Shown: in pieces, positions 8,768-53,374 of the stretch
Layout: each line of letters begins with the position of its first letter
How positions within the stretch are numbered: the stretch's first letter is position 1
Source of the DNA: Williamsia sp. CHRR-6
GTDB lineage: Bacteria; Actinomycetota; Actinomycetes; Mycobacteriales; Mycobacteriaceae
Length of the DNA: 64,000 nucleotides
NCBI RefSeq assembly: GCF_018474015.1
Contig: NZ_JAHCSG010000004.1
Coordinates: forward strand, 62,001 to 126,000
Reading direction: 5' to 3'
Program-made: the position numbers and the translations under genes
The notes under the pieces: model-generated
Seen by the model: only the letters and a program-made list of their open reading frames with translations
The model's database searches: none
Told to the model about the DNA's origin: nothing

Positions 8768-10105
8768 ATGGCCAGTGGCCGCCTGTCGGTGAAAGAACTC
8801 GTGGGGCCGGTGCTCATCTTCGTCGGAGCCCTGCTGTTGGTCGTGGCGATCGCGCTGCCGCTGTACCTGGTGGGTCAGCTGAAGAAGGCCCCGATGGACA
8901 CCGACTACACCACGGTGTCGGCGGCGCAGCGAGTCGACGGAGTGGGCACCGATGCGTTGCCTGCGCAGATCCTCAACCCGTGTTCGCTGACGTCGGACAA
9001 GCCCGAGGTGTCCGACGCCGCGCTGACCCGTCAGCAGCGGGTGGTCGCCGTCAAGCCTGCTGGTTCGTCGAAGATCACCTACCAGGCCGGTACGTCGATC
9101 AAGATCGACAAGGTCGCGATCTCCGGTGAGACCGTCACCCCCAGCGCCGACGCCAGCGGCGGCGGCTGCCTGGGTTCGCTGTACTCGGCCACCAAGGATC
9201 GTGTGACCACCGACCGTACCTCCGGTGAGGCCAAGGTCAGCGGTGGCGGCAGCTCCGAGGTGCTCGTCGACTCCGCCGACAAGTCGATCACCATCCCCGA
9301 CCGCAAGGGTCTGCAGTACCGCTTCCCCTTCGACGCCGAGAAGAAGTCGGGTTACCTGTACTTCGACCTGACCACCCGCACCTCGAGCCCCCTGAAGTTC
9401 GTCGACACCGCCGAGGTGAGTGGTGTGAAGGTCAACCACTACCGCGTGGAGGTACCCGAGGCCGACCTGGGCAACCAGCAAGGCGCCAACGGTCAGCCGT
9501 TGGCCGGGGCCACCCTGAGCAAGCCCGCCGCGTTCTTCGGTGGGTTCCCCGGCATCGACAAGGCACAGGCGTTGACCGCCAACCTGTTCCACAAGGGCAC
9601 CTACGACCTGTACGTGGACCCCAAGACCGGCACCATCATCAACACCCGTGAGCGGATCGAGGAGTACTACAAGTTCTCCGGCATCAGCGACGACTCCCCC
9701 GCCGCCCTGCGTGACTACAAGCTGACCAAGCTCGACGTCACCTTTGCCTACGACCAGAAGACACAGGAGTCGCGCGCATCTGCCGCCAAGGATCAGCAGT
9801 CGCCGATCACCCTGTGGGGCCGCTGGTTGCCGATCCTGTTCGGCGTGCTGGGTCTGGTCGCCCTCATCGGCGGCATCGTGGTGCTGTTCCGCTCGCCGGC
9901 TACCGCCGGTGGCGGCGCCGACGACGACCCCTACTACCCGGTGGCCACCCCGGACGACGCCAATCGGTTCCGTGACGTGGGCGACGCACCGACCACCACC
10001 ATCCCGAACCTCAGCAAGGACACCGGCGGAACCGAGGGCGGCTACGACGAGGACCCGACCCAGAACATCCCGCGTCAGGACTGGACCGACCCCGACAAGC
10101 GCTAG
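8768..10105 (+). CDS. DUF3068 membrane protein, MmpA-like (Rv0227c-like)
   Basis: 445-aa protein with one membrane helix near each end (about 13-35 and 365-387) and a large extracytoplasmic domain between, followed by an acidic Pro/Thr-rich cytoplasmic tail. This is the DUF3068 layout. From memory, the C. glutamicum homologue was named MmpA and is needed for efficient surface transport of trehalose lipids; the role here is by analogy. AAGGAG stands 11 nt before the ATG, unlike most genes of this locus. Codon choice is strongly biased to C/G-ending codons (AAG, GAC, CTG), suggesting high expression. A second DUF3068 gene lies at 12022. Confidence 0.85.
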   Translation: MASGRLSVKELVGPVLIFVGALLLVVAIALPLYLVGQLKKAPMDTDYTTVSAAQRVDGVGTDALPAQILNPCSLTSDKPEVSDAALTRQQRVVAVKPAGSSKITYQAGTSIKIDKVAISGETVTPSADASGGGCLGSLYSATKDRVTTDRTSGEAKVSGGGSSEVLVDSADKSITIPDRKGLQYRFPFDAEKKSGYLYFDLTTRTSSPLKFVDTAEVSGVKVNHYRVEVPEADLGNQQGANGQPLAGATLSKPAAFFGGFPGIDKAQALTANLFHKGTYDLYVDPKTGTIINTRERIEEYYKFSGISDDSPAALRDYKLTKLDVTFAYDQKTQESRASAAKDQQSPITLWGRWLPILFGVLGLVALIGGIVVLFRSPATAGGGADDDPYYPVATPDDANRFRDVGDAPTTTIPNLSKDTGGTEGGYDEDPTQNIPRQDWTDPDKR

Positions 10106-44707: not shown

Positions 44708-45384
<677 letters not shown>

Positions 45385-45433: not shown

Positions 45434-45458
45434 ACTGTCATTATCGTCCAGTGACAGT
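45434..45458. promoter_or_regulatory. Inverted repeat and -10 over the start of the STAND gene
   Basis: ACTGTCA (45434-45440) and TGACAGT (45452-45458), perfect 7-bp arms 11 bases apart, enclose a -10-like CATTAT (45439-45444) and the GTG start at 45451. Transcription would begin at the start codon. The arrangement fits autorepression. Confidence 0.5.
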
Positions 45459-47223
45459 CGGGGAGCTCACAGATGTCGAGCGGGGCGTGGCGCGGGCACT
45501 GCGGACAGAGTCGGGGTTGGTGAACCTCGTCGGCGCGTTGGGGACCGGCAAGAGTACGTTGATCGCTTCCCTGCCGAATTCACAGGTCATCGACATGGAT
45601 CGGGCACACGCCGGCGCCGACATCCGGCGCGCACTGTCGCGACCTGACATCCGGGTGGCCATCGACAACGTCGACGGCCGTCGGCGCCTGGGGGTGGCGC
45701 TGGCCGCCATCACCGCGATCCCGCACCCCAACGTCATCGTGGTGACCCGTCGACCGGTGGTGTCGCTGCCCGGGTGGTCGAATGTGTCCACCATCCGACT
45801 CGAACCCACCTGCGACGAGACGATCGCCGAGCTGGCGGCCGAGCTAGGTGTCGGCGACCGCGCTCTGCCCGCAGTGGTACGCATGGCCGCGGGGGTGCCG
45901 TTGATCGCGGTGGCCGCGGCACGCGCACTGGCCCAGGACATTCCACTGCGCCCCGACGGTCCGCTGGCTGATCATGTTGCCGGCGAGATACTCTCGCGCC
46001 TGGGCCGTGAACTCCCGGGCTGGAAGTGGCAGTTCCTGTTGCGTGGGCTGGCCACCATGGGCGCCGGTGACGAGAAGATGTTGCGCACCCGACCCGACCA
46101 GTTCGACGCGCTGGCCGATCTCACCCTGGTCAATCGATCCACAGCGGGTTTGGTTGTGGCCGAACCGTTTCGGTGGGTGCTAGAGACAGCGTACCGTTGG
46201 CGCGATCCCAGCGGCCACCAAGCGGTACGCAGCAAGGCGGCCGCCTACCGACGCGATCGCATGGTGAGTGCCACCACCGCAGCCGAGCGGGCACCGCAGG
46301 TGGAGCAGGCACTGTTCCTGCATGGCGACAACCAGGTTCGTGAGACGTTCTTCCCGCCCGGCCGTCCGTTCCTACCGATTCGCGCGGCTCGTACCGAGGA
46401 CTCCGGTGCCATCGGTGAGCTGATGCAGGGTTGGGCCGTACACAACGGGTTCGACCGCAAGCAGTGTGATCGCCTGGCCGAGCAGTGGGTATCCGACGAC
46501 GTCACCGGTTTTCATCTGATCGAGGATGCTGCCGGCCCGGTAGGCCTGTTGCGGTTGGTGATGGTGGGCGATCGCACCATCGACGGGGTGGAGCCGCTGG
46601 TGCAGCAGTACGGCGACACCCTGCTGGGCCGCAGCAGACGCACCCTGTTCCTTGGCGCGGCGTTCTGCCCGCACCCGGTGGCGCACGCACAGCTGTTGCG
46701 GCACATCATCGAGAACGCGCTGACCGCCGATCGGCTGGTGGTGTCGACCGCTGGGCACGACTACCAGCAGATCCTGTCGGCGTTACGCTTCGCCACCCAC
46801 GGCGACATCCGCGACGACACCTTCCGCTGCGGCAAGCCGCCGGTGGTGTTCAGCAACCAGTTCACCGCCGCCGCGTTGCCGGGGTGGATCGGGCGGCTGG
46901 GCGGGGCTGATGACGACCACGTGCAGGCCACGGCGTTCGCCCTGGCCCGACTGCGGGAGCCGGCGAGCAAGCCGGGTCTGCGGGCTGTGGCGGTGGACGA
47001 GTTGCGGGAGCGGATGACTTCGGCCATCGCAACCCTGACCGCAAGCCCCGATCCGGTAGACGCCGAATCCGGTCGCATCCTGACCGCCTACTACCTGGGT
47101 GGTCAGCGCACCCACGTGCAGGTCTACCTGCAGTTGCACCTGAGTCGGGCCACCTATTTCCGGCGGCTACGTCATGGCCACGCGGCGGTGGCCAGGATTC
47201 TCGGGCAGACCACAGCCGTGTGA
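45451..47223 (+). CDS. STAND-type NTPase with GNAT-like and HTH domains
   Basis: 590-aa protein with no family name I can give. The N-terminal NTPase has Walker A GALGTGKST (28-36), Walker B VAIDNVD (69-75), a VIVVTRRP sensor-like stretch (about 95-102) and GVPLI (148-152), the set seen in STAND/NB-ARC-like switches. Residues about 305-460 look like a GNAT acyltransferase fold (IRAARTEDSGAIGEL, then GPVGLLRLVMV). The end (about 545-585, LHLSRATYFRRLRHGHAAV) resembles a helix-turn-helix. A signal-sensing DNA-binding regulator is the likely role. The GTG start lies in an inverted repeat; repeats of TGAGAC begin exactly at its stop codon. Confidence 0.65.
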   Translation: MTVGELTDVERGVARALRTESGLVNLVGALGTGKSTLIASLPNSQVIDMDRAHAGADIRRALSRPDIRVAIDNVDGRRRLGVALAAITAIPHPNVIVVTRRPVVSLPGWSNVSTIRLEPTCDETIAELAAELGVGDRALPAVVRMAAGVPLIAVAAARALAQDIPLRPDGPLADHVAGEILSRLGRELPGWKWQFLLRGLATMGAGDEKMLRTRPDQFDALADLTLVNRSTAGLVVAEPFRWVLETAYRWRDPSGHQAVRSKAAAYRRDRMVSATTAAERAPQVEQALFLHGDNQVRETFFPPGRPFLPIRAARTEDSGAIGELMQGWAVHNGFDRKQCDRLAEQWVSDDVTGFHLIEDAAGPVGLLRLVMVGDRTIDGVEPLVQQYGDTLLGRSRRTLFLGAAFCPHPVAHAQLLRHIIENALTADRLVVSTAGHDYQQILSALRFATHGDIRDDTFRCGKPPVVFSNQFTAAALPGWIGRLGGADDDHVQATAFALARLREPASKPGLRAVAVDELRERMTSAIATLTASPDPVDAESGRILTAYYLGGQRTHVQVYLQLHLSRATYFRRLRHGHAAVARILGQTTAV

Positions 47224-47276
47224 GACCCGATCTGAGACGTTCGTGAGACTAGCGACCATTGTCTCGGTCCTACGCT
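47221..47276 (+). promoter_or_regulatory. Direct-repeat promoter module 1
   Basis: TGAGAC at 47221, 47233 and 47244 (the last two spaced 11 bp, one helical turn), then a -10 box TACGCT at 47271-47276. The geometry is that of OmpR/PhoB-type or SARP-type activator sites overlapping the -35 region. The same module recurs 177 bp downstream. It faces a candidate small RNA. Confidence 0.6.
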
Positions 47277-47282
47277 CAGAGG

Positions 47283-47393
47283 CGTCGGAGATTGTGCGTC
47301 TCCGGCGTCACCACTGGTCACCGGCTACGCCCCTAACCGGCGACACGGAGCAACCCCGTTCGTCCCCCGCGACGATCGGGGTTTCTTCGTTTC
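47283..47393 (+). ncRNA. Candidate small RNA with intrinsic terminator
   Basis: Between the two promoter modules lies about 110 bp with three consecutive stems: CGGAGA (47286-47291) with TCTCCG (47299-47304); GTCACCGG (47317-47324) with 47337-47344, one mismatch; and a terminator stem 47352-47383 followed by a T-rich tail. No reading frame fits. A transcript from the TACGCT box would start near 47283 and stop near 47393. C-rich loops recall the actinobacterial 6C RNA, but the fit is only partial. Confidence 0.55.
47352..47393 (+). terminator. Intrinsic terminator
   Basis: AACCCCG (47352-47358) pairs with CGGGGTT (47377-47383). Inside, TCGTC pairs with GACGA, separated from the outer stem by one T-T mismatch and closing a six-base CCCCGC loop. 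TTTCTTCGTTTCT follows. This is the clearest T-tailed terminator in the window. Confidence 0.8.
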
Positions 47394-47407
47394 TGGGTAC
47401 GACGATT

Positions 47408-47453
47408 TCTGAGACTTTCGTGAGACTATCGAACGATAAGCCGCTCCTACCGT
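47408..47453 (+). promoter_or_regulatory. Direct-repeat promoter module 2
   Basis: TGAGAC at 47410 and 47421 (11-bp spacing) and a -10 box TACCGT at 47448-47453. Segment 47408-47434 matches 47231-47257 at 24 of 27 bases, and the distance from the first TGAGAC to the -10 box is 38 bp in both modules. It reads toward the secreted-protein gene at 47513. Confidence 0.65.
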
Positions 47454-47512
47454 CAGACGTGCCCGGTCTACGACCAGGCTCCATCACGAACACCACGGCA
47501 AAGGAGTGCGAG

Positions 47513-47962
47513 ATGAAAAGGCAGATCATCAGTTGGGGCACTGCAGCCCTGATCGCCGGCGCAATCATTACCAACGCCACCGGAACCGCGTCTGCGGACA
47601 TATTCACCAAGGTCGGCTCCAGGCCGGGCGGAGCGGACGGGGCTGTCATTTACGTCTACGAGTCCCGAGAGGGCGTCCGGATGTACACCGACGTCGATTG
47701 GGGCCCGACATATGACACCGACCGGCCCTACATTCCCATCCAGCCGACACCGCCACCGGCCCCAACACCGACTCCCCCGCCCACGCCCGCACCGGCGCCT
47801 CCCGCCACCGGTGGCGGCGGTGGTGGTGGCGGTGGCGGATTCGCGGGTGGCGGCGTCGACCTGCCTGGCGGGTCCTTTGGTGGTGGCGGCAGTGACGGGG
47901 GTAGCGGCACCGTGACCGTCGGCGATCCCGACCCCGTTCGGCCACCGACTGACGCGGTGTAG
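47513..47962 (+). CDS. Secreted Pro/Gly-rich small protein
   Basis: 149-aa exported protein of unknown function. The Sec signal peptide (MKRQIISWGTAALIAGAII start, cleavage near ATGTASA-D, about residue 27) is followed by a unique 50-residue domain with VYESREGVRMYTDVDWGP, a Pro-rich hinge (PTPPPAPTPTPPPTPAP) and a Gly-rich tail with runs of Gly (about 98-145). AAGGAG sits 6 nt before the ATG. The low-complexity tail suggests a wall- or surface-associated protein. Expression is probably controlled by the direct-repeat promoter at 47408-47453. Confidence 0.75.
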   Translation: MKRQIISWGTAALIAGAIITNATGTASADIFTKVGSRPGGADGAVIYVYESREGVRMYTDVDWGPTYDTDRPYIPIQPTPPPAPTPTPPPTPAPAPPATGGGGGGGGGGFAGGGVDLPGGSFGGGGSDGGSGTVTVGDPDPVRPPTDAV

Positions 47963-48012
47963 GTCGCTCCCGGTTTCTGGCACGAGCTGACGCTGCGATG
48001 CAGGATGGACGG

Positions 48013-50004
48013 GTGACCGCAATCGATGACACCCGCGCTCCCCGTCCATCCGGCATCGATCTTCAGTGGGTGAACTCCACCACTCGCCCTCAGGACGACC
48101 TCTACGAACACGTCAACGGTGCCTGGATCGCCGCGCATGAGATCCCCGCCGACCGCCCCATCGACGGATCCTTCCTGGCGCTGCGGGACCGTGCCGAGCA
48201 AGACGTCCGCGTGATCATCGAAGAGTGTTCGACGGCAACGGAATCCGAGCCGGGTAGCGACGTCCAGTTGATCGGTGACCTGTACCGCTCGTTCATGGAC
48301 GAAGCGCGCATCGAGTCCCTCGGCATCACACCGGTGCAGCCATATCTCGATGCCATCGACGCGATCACTGACACCGCAGGGTTGGCCCGCGAGATCGGGC
48401 GGTTGCAGCGCAACGGGATCGGCGGTGCGGTGGGGTTCTACGTCAACACCGACGCCAAGCAGTCCGATCGCTACCTGGTGCACCTGTCCCAGTCCGGGCT
48501 GGGCCTGCCCGATGAGTCGTACTACCACGACGACAAGCATGCGCAGACGCTGGAAACCTACGTCGCGCATGTGCAGGCCATGTTCGCCCTGGCCGGGTTC
48601 GACGATGCCGCAGTTCGGGCGGAGTCGGTGGTCGAACTGGAAACAGCGTTGGCCGAACACCATTGGGATGTGGTCGCTCGCCGGGACGCCGACAAGCGCT
48701 ACAACCTGCGGACGCTTGCGCAGGTGCGCACCGAGGCAAGCGGTTTCGACGTGGACGCGTGGATCGACGGCTTGGGTGCACAGCCTGAGGCGTTCGGTGA
48801 AACCGTGGTCGGTCAGCCGTCGTTCCTCACGGGGCTGGGGTCGCTGATCGCCGAGCGTGAACTGGCACAGTGGAAGACTTGGTTGCAGTGGCGGGTTTTG
48901 GCCTCGGCGGCCCCGTATCTGTCGTCAGCGTTCGTCGATAAGCACTTCGACTTCTACGGGCGCACATTGAGCGGAACGCCCGAGAACCGGGAGCGGTGGA
49001 AGCGCGGCGTCAGCCTGGTGGAGGCGGCGGTCGGCTTTGCCGTGGGCAAACTGTATGTGCAGCGGCACTATCCGCCGGCGGCGAAGGCGCGGATGGATGA
49101 GTTGATCGCCAACCTGGTCGAGGCGTATCGCCGCAACATCACCGATCTGGAGTGGATGAGCCCAGAGACCAGGGAACGTGCCCTGACGAAGTTGTCGAAG
49201 TTCACCCCGAAGGTCGGCCACCCAGCGTCGTGGCGCGACTACTCCGGTTTGGTGATCGAAGCCGACGATCTGATTGGGAACGTTGCGCGGGCAAGTGCTT
49301 TCGAGCAGGACCGCGAGATGGCCAAGCTGGGTGGGCCGGTGGATCGTGACGAGTGGTTCATGACGCCGCAGACGGTGAACGCTTACTACAACCCGGGCAT
49401 GAACGAGATCGTGTTCCCGGCAGCGATCTTGCAGCCCCCGTTCTTCGATCCCGACGCCGACGACGCCGCCAACTACGGCGGAATCGGAGCGGTCATCGGA
49501 CACGAGATCGGGCATGGCTTCGACGATCAGGGTGCAAAGTATGACGGCGACGGCAACCTCATCGACTGGTGGACCGAGTCCGATCGCACCGAGTTCGGCA
49601 AACGGACGGCGATGCTGATAGAGCAGTACAACGGGTTCACCCCCGCCGGGCTGGACGCCGAACACACTGTCAACGGCGCATTCACCATCGGGGAGAACAT
49701 CGGTGACCTCGGTGGGCTGTCGATCGCGTTGCAGGCCTACAAGATCGCCACCGAGGGCACCGAGCCGCCGGTGTTAGACGGACTGACAGGGCTTCAGCGG
49801 GTGTTCTTCGGCTGGGCTCAGGTGTGGCGCACCAAGACCCGCGAGGCAGAAGCCATCCGACGCCTGTCGATCGACCCGCACTCACCGCCGGAGTTTCGCT
49901 GCAACGGTGTGATCCGCAACGTCGACGACTTCTACACCGCTTTCGACGTCAGACCCACCGACGCCTTGTACCTGGAACCTGATCAGCGCGTGCGGATCTG
50001 GTAG
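48013..50004 (+). CDS. zmp1: M13 zinc metallopeptidase (Zmp1-like)
   Basis: 663-aa neprilysin-type peptidase, the same length as M. tuberculosis Zmp1 (Rv0198c) and very similar in sequence as I recall it. Zinc site HEIGH in IGHEIGHGFDDQGAKYDG (about 497), third ligand in ENIGDLGG (about 561), substrate-binding NAYYNPGMNEIVFP just before, and the C-terminal RVRIW ending needed for folding. There is no signal peptide, as in Zmp1, which is nevertheless exported by mycobacteria. GTG 48013 (after AGGA) is preferred; an ATG at 47998 is possible. A diverged copy lies at 51404. Confidence 0.93.
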   Translation: MTAIDDTRAPRPSGIDLQWVNSTTRPQDDLYEHVNGAWIAAHEIPADRPIDGSFLALRDRAEQDVRVIIEECSTATESEPGSDVQLIGDLYRSFMDEARIESLGITPVQPYLDAIDAITDTAGLAREIGRLQRNGIGGAVGFYVNTDAKQSDRYLVHLSQSGLGLPDESYYHDDKHAQTLETYVAHVQAMFALAGFDDAAVRAESVVELETALAEHHWDVVARRDADKRYNLRTLAQVRTEASGFDVDAWIDGLGAQPEAFGETVVGQPSFLTGLGSLIAERELAQWKTWLQWRVLASAAPYLSSAFVDKHFDFYGRTLSGTPENRERWKRGVSLVEAAVGFAVGKLYVQRHYPPAAKARMDELIANLVEAYRRNITDLEWMSPETRERALTKLSKFTPKVGHPASWRDYSGLVIEADDLIGNVARASAFEQDREMAKLGGPVDRDEWFMTPQTVNAYYNPGMNEIVFPAAILQPPFFDPDADDAANYGGIGAVIGHEIGHGFDDQGAKYDGDGNLIDWWTESDRTEFGKRTAMLIEQYNGFTPAGLDAEHTVNGAFTIGENIGDLGGLSIALQAYKIATEGTEPPVLDGLTGLQRVFFGWAQVWRTKTREAEAIRRLSIDPHSPPEFRCNGVIRNVDDFYTAFDVRPTDALYLEPDQRVRIW

Positions 50005-51403: not shown

Positions 51404-53374
51404 GTGAGCATTACAAACGACCGAGACTCCGGGCTGGAACTGCACTGGGTCGACCCCGACATCAGACCTCAGGACGACTTTTACGGGCACGTCAACGGCA
51501 CCTGGCTACGTGAGACGACCATCGCGGCCGACGAGTTCATGGCGAGCCCGGGTGTGGTCAGCGAGAAACGCAAAGAAGGGCAGCTCGCCGCCATCCTCGA
51601 CGATGCTGCCAGTGATCCGGCAGCGCAGGGTGATCGGCGTCGCATCGCCGACCTCTACACGTCGTACACCGATGTCGAACGGGTGAACGCGCTCGGTCTC
51701 GAACCGTTACGCACGGTGGTCGAGCGGATTCAAGCCACCACCGATCGCACCGAATTGTGCTCAGTGCTGGGCGATCTCACTCGCACGCTCAACACACCAA
51801 CCGGGCCGCTGATCTGGTTGAACCAGGACGAGCGCGACTCCAGTCGCTATCTGGTGCACCTGCTGCAGTCGGGTCTGTCGCTGCCCGACGAGTCGTACTA
51901 CCGCACCGATACCCACGCCGACCTACGGCACGCTTTCGCCGCACACGTCTGCGCCTCGCTCGCCCTGCTGGAGCTACCTGACGCCGACACCGCCGGCGCA
52001 CGCGTCCTGGCTGTGGAGTCCGCGATCGCGGCCCACCACTGGGAGCCGGCCCGAACCCGCGATCTGGACCAGACCTACAACCTGCTCAACTGGGCCGAAC
52101 TGCGTTCCATCGCAGGTGGATTCGACATCGGCGCCTGGATTGCCGGCCTGCAGGCCCCGGCCGGGGCGTTCGACGAGGTGGTCGTCAACGAGCCGAGCGC
52201 ACTGGCGGGCTTGGGCAAGGTCTTCACCCAGACTGCACTGGCCGATCTACAGACCTGGGCCATCTGGCATGCCTTCCACTCCGCGGCGAGCTGGCTGGGC
52301 GATGACATCGCCGACCACGATTTCACGATGAATCGCTTGGTGTACGGAACGCAGCAACGTGCACCGCTGCCGCGGCGAGCCTGCTCGGCGGTGACCAGGC
52401 TGCTCGGTGACGCCCTGGGCCGCCTGTACGTGCAGCGACACTTCCCGCCACACTCCAAAGATCGCATCGACACGCTGGTTGCCAACCTGATGGCGGCGTA
52501 TCGCTGCAGCATTGCAGCCGCCGACTGGCTCACCGAATCGACTCGGGTACAGGCATTGTCGAAGCTCGCCGCATTCCGGCCGCAGGTCGGATACCCGCAG
52601 AAGTGGATGGACTACAGCGGGTTGCAGCTCGACCCGAACGATCTGTTCGGCAACGTGCAACGCTGCCGCGCCTTCGAGATGCATCGGCAACTGAGCAAGG
52701 TCGGGCAAAGCGTCGATCGTGACATCTGGATCATGCCCGCGCACGAAGCTAACGCCTACTACGAGCCCGGAATGAACGAAATCGTTTTTCCAGCAGGCTT
52801 TCTCCAGTTTCCCATGTTCGATGCCGACGCCGACGACGCCCTCAACTACGGCGCCATCGGTGCGGTGATCGGCCACGAGATCGGCCACGGCTTCGACGAT
52901 CAGGGCGCCAAGTTCGACGGCGACGGCAACCTACGCAACTGGTGGACCGACGCCGACCGCGCCGCCTTCGCAGCCAAGACCGCAGTCCTCATCGAGCAGT
53001 TCGACACCTTCACCCCACGCGATCTCGACGAGGGAACGGTGAACGGAGCGCAGACCGTCGGCGAGAACATCGCCGACCTCGGTGGGCTGTCGATTGCATT
53101 GAAGGCGTACGCGATTGCCACCGAGGAGACCGGCGCACCGGTGATCGACGGGCTGACCGGTGCCCAACGCGTGTTCTACTCCTGGGCGCAGAACTGGCGG
53201 ATGAAACTCCATCCCGAAACCACACAGATGGTTTTGGCGATGGACGTTCACTCGCCAGCCGAATTCCGTGTCAACGGCATCGTGCCCCACATCCCGGAGT
53301 TCTACGCCGAGTTCGACGTACAACCCGGTGACGCCATGTATCTGCCGCCGGACAAGCGCGTGCGCCTGTGGTGA
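51404..53374 (+). CDS. M13 zinc metallopeptidase, second paralogue
   Basis: 656-aa paralogue of the 48013 peptidase with all catalytic elements: IGHEIGHGFDDQGAKFDG, ENIADLGGLSIALKAY, NAYYEPGMNEIVFPAG and the C-terminal RVRLW. N- and C-terminal parts align over the full length, but the middle (about 150-330) has diverged strongly, so substrate preference probably differs. GTG 51404 start; no signal peptide. M. tuberculosis has only one Zmp1 as far as I know, so this is a lineage-specific duplicate. Cytosolic or exported location cannot be decided. Confidence 0.92.
   Translation: MSITNDRDSGLELHWVDPDIRPQDDFYGHVNGTWLRETTIAADEFMASPGVVSEKRKEGQLAAILDDAASDPAAQGDRRRIADLYTSYTDVERVNALGLEPLRTVVERIQATTDRTELCSVLGDLTRTLNTPTGPLIWLNQDERDSSRYLVHLLQSGLSLPDESYYRTDTHADLRHAFAAHVCASLALLELPDADTAGARVLAVESAIAAHHWEPARTRDLDQTYNLLNWAELRSIAGGFDIGAWIAGLQAPAGAFDEVVVNEPSALAGLGKVFTQTALADLQTWAIWHAFHSAASWLGDDIADHDFTMNRLVYGTQQRAPLPRRACSAVTRLLGDALGRLYVQRHFPPHSKDRIDTLVANLMAAYRCSIAAADWLTESTRVQALSKLAAFRPQVGYPQKWMDYSGLQLDPNDLFGNVQRCRAFEMHRQLSKVGQSVDRDIWIMPAHEANAYYEPGMNEIVFPAGFLQFPMFDADADDALNYGAIGAVIGHEIGHGFDDQGAKFDGDGNLRNWWTDADRAAFAAKTAVLIEQFDTFTPRDLDEGTVNGAQTVGENIADLGGLSIALKAYAIATEETGAPVIDGLTGAQRVFYSWAQNWRMKLHPETTQMVLAMDVHSPAEFRVNGIVPHIPEFYAEFDVQPGDAMYLPPDKRVRLW

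Follow-up and report, generated by a model that had tools for sequence, protein, structure and literature searches.

Which regulator acts on two near-copies of one promoter module that stand 177 bp apart behind a STAND-like regulator gene of Williamsia sp. CHRR-6, and why does this locus have two? The modules belong to a stretch of 64,000 nucleotides (contig NZ_JAHCSG010000004.1, positions 62,001 to 126,000; hereafter the window, whose numbering is used unless stated otherwise) in a genome of 4.0 Mb and 14 contigs. The first module is followed by a structured stretch, a candidate small RNA, and the second by the gene of a Pro/Gly-rich protein that appears to be secreted. Filamentous Actinobacteria commonly encode orphan STAND regulators, few of which have a known operator. 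The explanation favored here, with a probability of about 0.62, is that a local MalT-like STAND activator switches on the secreted protein and, in this genome, a small RNA by means of a duplicated operator. The adjacent STAND-like gene is the likely cognate regulator.

Duplicated promoter modules

Copies of TGAGAC start at positions 47221, 47233, 47244, 47410, and 47421. The last four constitute two operators of the form TGAGAC-N5-TGAGAC on the plus strand (47233–47249 and 47410–47426), with a repeat spacing of 11 bp in each, and a -10 box of the TANNNT type lies exactly 38 bp from the first repeat of either operator (TACGCT at 47271–47276 and TACCGT at 47448–47453). In both modules the end of the 3' repeat is separated from the -10 box by 21 bp, the repeat centre being located at about -42. 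A 50-nt direct repeat, 76% identical, covers the two modules, and direct reading of the repeat core gives 24 matching bases of 27. This geometry, including the distance between the modules, had been described in the original prediction, which was made from the DNA letters before any database search, and the coordinates confirm it.

TGAGAC by itself is not enriched in the window (23 copies versus 32 expected), whereas the module is rare. Its 24-bp core has only two copies in the genome at up to three mismatches, both of them the window modules; with up to two mismatches allowed, it is absent from the 300 other family genomes, and a further scan of genome contigs yielded no relative. The exact pair TGAGAC-N5-TGAGAC occurs four times in the genome, twice in this intergenic region; the other two pairs (L001 and L004) have no TANNNT at +38. 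Both modules look like targets of one activator. The additional TGAGAC on the stop codon of the STAND-like gene (47221–47226, plus strand) is present as predicted, but it is spaced by 12 bp, not 11 bp, from the next copy and is therefore out of register, so that it is probably coincidental.

The STAND-like protein

The gene upstream of the modules (45451–47223, plus strand) encodes 590 amino acids with a putative N-terminal P-loop NTPase, a middle part that is possibly GNAT-like, and a C-terminal helix-turn-helix (HTH) containing LSRATYFRRL. The P-loop region of the window protein matches AAA_16 below the Pfam threshold (E 0.017). Among 16 homologues, likewise below threshold, AAA_16 is found in seven, NACHT in five, and nSTAND families in one to three each (best E 0.0055), and the Walker A motif G-x-x-G-x-G-K-S/T is invariant in the homologue alignment (A1). 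Because the profiles are weak throughout, the label 'STAND' is fair, short of proof. The C-terminal HTH, which would provide the DNA-binding domain required of a STAND regulator, matches the PA0613 family in the window protein (residues 539–588, E 0.0029) and Sigma70_r4 (best E 0.00082) and DUF1492 in 8 of the 16 homologues, all below the curated cut-offs. GerE, the LuxR-type HTH, has no match in the window protein; among the STAND proteins scanned it was found only in L108 and L111. No tetratricopeptide repeat (TPR) sensor was seen in the window protein, and its middle part resembles the GNAT enzyme 2vi7 (profile positions 401–477, E 0.019). A single-sequence structure prediction (pLDDT 36.8) was not used.

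Other families of the class contain homologues with 33–44% identity. The class-wide search matched 21 of 345 genomes, most of them weakly, with five strong non-self matches (E < 1e-50; G524, G434, G548, G315, and G569), and a profile search of the genus of G524 matched 18 of 382 genomes, with 15 strong loci in 12 of them. Within the family of Williamsia, the sole other STAND match is a weak one in the genus mate G003 (E 6.3e-4, residues 8–104), and no other genome of the genus was matched; plasmids, phages, viral contigs, and a first scan of genome contigs contained no relative. Seventeen homologue regions were read with longer flanks: 14 regions covering the 15 strong loci, and those of G548, G315, and G569.

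The TGAGAC repeat accompanies the regulator in distant genomes

The exact pair is present in 12 of the 17 homologue regions (L097, L099, L101–L107, L109, L112, and L113), and degenerate copies occur in two more, L098 with one mismatch and L100 with two mismatches in the same geometry, the latter recovered by a matrix scan. The sites are located 57–1652 bp from the matched regulator region. The three remaining regions are L108, L111, and L110, whose start is 104 bp away from the end of its contig. Permuted words and other spacings do not show this linkage. When 180 permutations of the six letters were compared over 18 regions (the 17 together with 14 kb of window sequence), TGAGAC was found as a pair in 13 of them. 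GAGACT (4) and AGACTG (3) came next, both of them the same sites read in a shifted frame, and the others average 0.05. When the spacer was varied from N0 to N20, N5 gave 13 regions, N6 and N17 one each, and all others none.

The distance to the -10 box is shared as well. TANNNT lies exactly at +38 in 10 of 14 exact sites, which outside the window means 8 of 12 (L097, L099, L101, L102, L103, L104, L112, and L113), while L105–L107 have a third repeat, TGGGAC, and the box at +50; the +38 position in L100 is partly given by construction, as the site matrix includes the -10 box. By comparison, none of 51 distinct control pairs away from STAND homologues, among the matches listed, has TANNNT at +38. 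These controls were drawn from 42 of the 45 loci L114–L158 (three STAND-linked loci were set aside) and from L001 and L004; 30 of the control loci were picked by the search tool and 15 by the authors with a preference for triple repeats, and overlapping repeats were counted separately. Again among the matches listed, the pair is present in 10 of 12 genomes with a strong homologue versus 125 of 370 others, which include six genomes with weak homologue matches only (Fisher P 8e-4), and in the 12 genomes 10 of the 16 pairs adjoin the homologue. Two features of the repeat itself were observed in the control loci: triple TGAGAC repeats 11 bp apart occur in L144–L150, and the word TGAGACATCCCTGAGAC recurs identically in many genomes that have neither a STAND homologue nor TANNNT at +38 (e.g., L125, L128, L129, and L138).

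The regulators with sites fall into eight clusters at 65% identity (the window protein; L097; L098–L100; L101; L102–L104 with L113; L105–L107; L109; and L112), and the linkage is therefore not the copy of a single clade. The two complete regions without the pair, by exact search as well as by matrix scan, are L108 and L111, in which the C-terminal HTH is replaced by a LuxR-like type (GerE E 0.0022 and 0.037, with similarity to Sigma70_r4_2). Judged by profile matches, the regions in which the DNA-binding domain has been exchanged also lack the DNA word. The two proteins belong to one clade, nested among the other homologues with a support of 100/99, and the exchange thus counts as one event. 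L111 contains, at its position 8932, an inverted repeat, GGTACCCRCCC-N-GGGYGGGTACC, with a TANNNT box behind it, in the promoter of a minus-strand secreted gene that starts at 8781. It may be the replacement operator of the LuxR-like homologue; no such repeat was found in L108.

The STAND-like gene is the best candidate for the activator because the same repeat, spacing, and -10 distance adjoin its homologues in distant genomes, and because the pair is absent where the homologue has an HTH of the other type (2 of 2). The assignment had been the weakest inference of the original prediction and has become its best supported one.

Probable target genes

The second module precedes, as predicted, a gene of 149 codons for a Pro/Gly-rich protein with a signal-like N-terminus (47513–47962, plus strand); here and throughout, signal peptides were judged by eye. 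A paralogue in the same genome (L008, contig C2) is 58% identical over 102 amino acids and has no TGAGAC pair in the upstream stretch read. The protein was found neither in the seven other genomes of the genus nor in plasmids. In 8 of the 12 exact homologue sites (L097, L099, L101–L104, L112, and L113) the next frame is also signal-like or lipoprotein-like, and in L097 it contains a ricin-type lectin domain (E 3e-30).

The candidate small RNA

The stretch behind the first module would give an RNA from 47283 to 47393 on the plus strand, the start being derived from the -10 box and the end from a terminator-like hairpin. Three plus-strand hairpins are predicted (47281–47309, 47317–47344, and 47345–47390), the last of which contains a terminator-like stem (47365–47381) followed by TTTCTTCGTT. 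The fold of 47279–47393 has a z of -4.7 (-4.3 to -5.3 over four runs), and only 3 of 600 random 115-nt stretches of the window reach -4.69. The three hairpins of the original prediction are thus upheld, but its T-tailed terminator is weak by itself, since the same scan finds 4 terminator-like sites in 6 kb versus 2.6 expected. Its statement that there is no reading frame does not hold literally: the reading frame that leads into the secreted gene is open as early as 47174, with a codon score that is negative until about 47444. None of the frames shows a coding signal. The only ATG, GTG, or TTG codons within 47280–47393 are one TTG (14 codons) and one GTG, both implausible starts because GGAG precedes them by 2–5 nt, less than the distance normal for a ribosome-binding site.

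Rfam has no matching family in the window at the gathering score (0 of 4227, 6C RNA included; the best sub-threshold match is Pseudomon-1, E 0.63). No relative of the RNA region was found in plasmids or, beyond short matches, in 8 genomes of the genus and 301 of the family; with a 288-bp query, blastn matched two of the eight genus genomes, own included. The non-self matches of 27–42 nt, of which L006 and L009 were looked at, were rejected as chance, that in L006 lying within a reading frame. Nor does any other homologue region contain a second operator module above the matrix cut-off: only the window locus is duplicated. The RNA remains a candidate, for which promoter, fold, and terminator-like end fit and likeness in relatives is lacking. 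Having neither a relative nor a second site elsewhere, it is the least certain part of the explanation and special to this genome among the genomes searched.

Two other views of this stretch were considered. It could be a relic that gives no functional RNA, either what is left of a lost gene or simply a terminator region. The lack of relatives would fit, as would the variability of the locus within the genus and the difference of the modules at 24% of 50 positions, which is expected of an older duplication. A relic is nevertheless rather unlikely, given that the repeats and -10 box of module 1 have been kept exactly while their surroundings diverged, and that no more than 0.5% of random stretches fold as well.

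Slightly less probable again, the modules could be tandem promoters of the secreted gene, in which case the hairpins would be an attenuator or a structured 5' leader, of which a stable 5' piece may accumulate. The modules have the same direction, the frame of the secreted gene has no stop from 47174, and the terminator-like signal is not strong. There is also a parallel: the small RNA Vsr217 of Vibrio depends on the STAND protein MalT and is derived from the 5' untranslated region of malK (PMC8265627). Vsr217 resembles the candidate RNA of the window in being a STAND-controlled small RNA that lies immediately before a target gene of the same regulator; the window RNA differs, from its sequence, in having its own operator-promoter copy and in ending before the promoter of the protein gene. 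Against this view, module 1 is separated from the gene by the terminator-like hairpin with its T-rich tail and by a complete second promoter, and in the relatives read a single module directly precedes its gene.

Proposed mode of action

STAND proteins assemble head to tail with ATP, as stated in PMC6468293. Such an assembly suits tandem direct repeats, and the position of the repeats is that of an activator in contact with sigma region 4, so that an ATP-dependent, MalT-like activator with a local target would be expected here. The STAND-like protein would bind an inducer and ATP and assemble head to tail, so that the C-terminal HTH domains could sit on two TGAGAC words one helical turn apart. 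With the repeats centred some 42 bp before the expected start, beside the position of sigma region 4, the protein would activate promoters in which a -10 box is present and no -35 element can be recognised. The usual target in relatives would be one neighbouring secreted-protein gene. In this genome, where the operator-promoter is duplicated, the downstream copy would drive the Pro/Gly-rich protein and the upstream one would give rise to a structured RNA, about 110 nt long, that stops short of the second module, so that one signal could raise both.

Several observations weigh against this explanation. The window protein is remote from the homologues, with at most 46% identity over residues 95–485, and the linkage sites, given the eight clusters at 65% identity, are not mutually independent. 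L109 has CAGACT instead of TANNNT at +38, and the gene behind the site in L105–L107 and L109 is regulator-like (TrmB E 0.0011 in L109) and divergent from the STAND gene, not secreted. The partial homologues L061–L063, two of which are broken genes, lack an exact pair within flanks of some 1.5 kb, and L110, at its contig edge, is uninformative. As to the RNA, blastn with the 288-bp region matched 4 of 301 family genomes, own included, with only three short matches beyond self; no homologue was found for a covariation comparison; and pairing with seven candidate nearby mRNA starts was nowhere outstanding, the best being DUF302 and STAND, which were equalled by 15 and 19, respectively, of 200 mononucleotide shuffles.

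The repeat could also mark autoregulation, or repression of the linked promoters, by the STAND protein. In 10 of the 14 site-bearing regions, 57–246 bp separate the site from the 5' end of the STAND match, and a protein bound at -50 to -34 could block the polymerase. It is an improbable alternative to activation, however: the repeats replace the -35 instead of covering the start or the -10 box, as is usual for activators, the known STAND regulators named in PMC10936776 (MalT, AfsR, and GutR) are activators, and the window repeats follow the STAND gene instead of preceding it.

Comparison with known regulators

PMC10936776 describes SARP promoters with repeats 11 or 22 bp apart and a 3' repeat 8 bp from the -10 box, and an afs box centred at -29.5 for AfsR, which is also a STAND protein. 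The direct repeats of the window, 11 bp apart, agree with that spacing; their distance of 21 bp to the -10 box and their centre at about -42 differ from the values given there. The original prediction of a single activator for both modules gains from the repeat and -10 geometry of the relatives, whereas the SARP geometry it had offered does not apply. In addition, the SARP domain is N-terminal and OmpR-like, while the HTH of the window protein is C-terminal.

MalT-type activators (MalT of E. coli; GutR) are another parallel, with a P-loop NTPase of the kind predicted in the window protein, a C-terminal HTH, and direct-repeat operators beside the -35 position. The window protein lacks the C-terminal LuxR/GerE HTH that defines the MalT/LAL subfamily; its HTH, like that of most homologues, matches profiles of the Sigma70_r4, DUF1492, and PA0613 kind. 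It also differs in having no visible TPR sensor, a middle part that is possibly GNAT-like, and a target that would be local and a secreted protein. OmpR/PhoB operators, in which a -10 box is preceded by a pair of direct repeats spaced by one helical turn, resemble the modules, but the window-type repeat is linked to the STAND gene and its HTH type; control by OmpR/PhoB is not needed for explaining the modules, and no search for response regulators was made. That the activator is an OmpR/PhoB response regulator or a SARP encoded elsewhere, with the STAND gene as bystander or further target, is the least probable of the explanations. In its favor, 11-bp direct repeats are typical of both families, and the site lies in most regions within the divergent promoter region of the STAND gene, which it could serve too; against it, exact pairs are rare (4 in 4.0 Mb, only 2 with a -10 box at +38), the pair tracks the STAND gene and its HTH type in relatives, and the SARP spacing of 8 bp is 21 bp here.

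Genomic setting

The STAND-like gene, the intergenic region, and the gene of the Pro/Gly-rich protein form a cassette between a CsoR-like gene (45115–45384) and an M13 peptidase gene (47998–50004). The CsoR–M13 distance is 2.6 kb in the window versus 796 bp in the genus mates G003 and G006. In G003 a Pirin gene (Pfam Pirin E 1e-27) occupies the position of the cassette; Pirin homologues precede M13 in G006 and G004, and none was seen in the stretches read from the other four genus mates. The locus is variable within the genus. Signs of a mobile-element origin were not seen: the window has no tRNA, and the G+C content of the region is unremarkable. The MmpL–DUF302–CsoR block (44708–45384) is kept in G003, and CsoR alone in G006. 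A second M13 peptidase gene (51404–53374) lies 1.4 kb from the first, with a 13E12/HNH-type gene (by-eye reading) in between; seven genus mates have two M13 matches each, but distant or on separate contigs.

Implications for STAND regulators

To our knowledge, a STAND-controlled switch with two outputs, a secreted protein and an RNA, has no direct precedent, and the regulator-operator system was not found in print within the open-access literature searched. A broader proposal, possible but tentative, is that of a distinct STAND family tied to TGAGAC-N5-TGAGAC-N21-TANNNT, where the -35 contact of sigma would be taken over by a region-4-like HTH carried on an oligomer assembled with ATP, the operator word would change with the HTH, and a small RNA would here have been captured as a second target by operator duplication, giving a two-output switch.

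For an orphan regulator of this type, sequence alone yields the regulator family, an operator, a promoter geometry, and a likely target. The natural exchange of the HTH serves as a built-in control, and a short promoter is enough to test how a STAND activator recognises DNA. Should the RNA prove real, the locus would show that duplication of an operator is a way of bringing a small RNA into a regulon.

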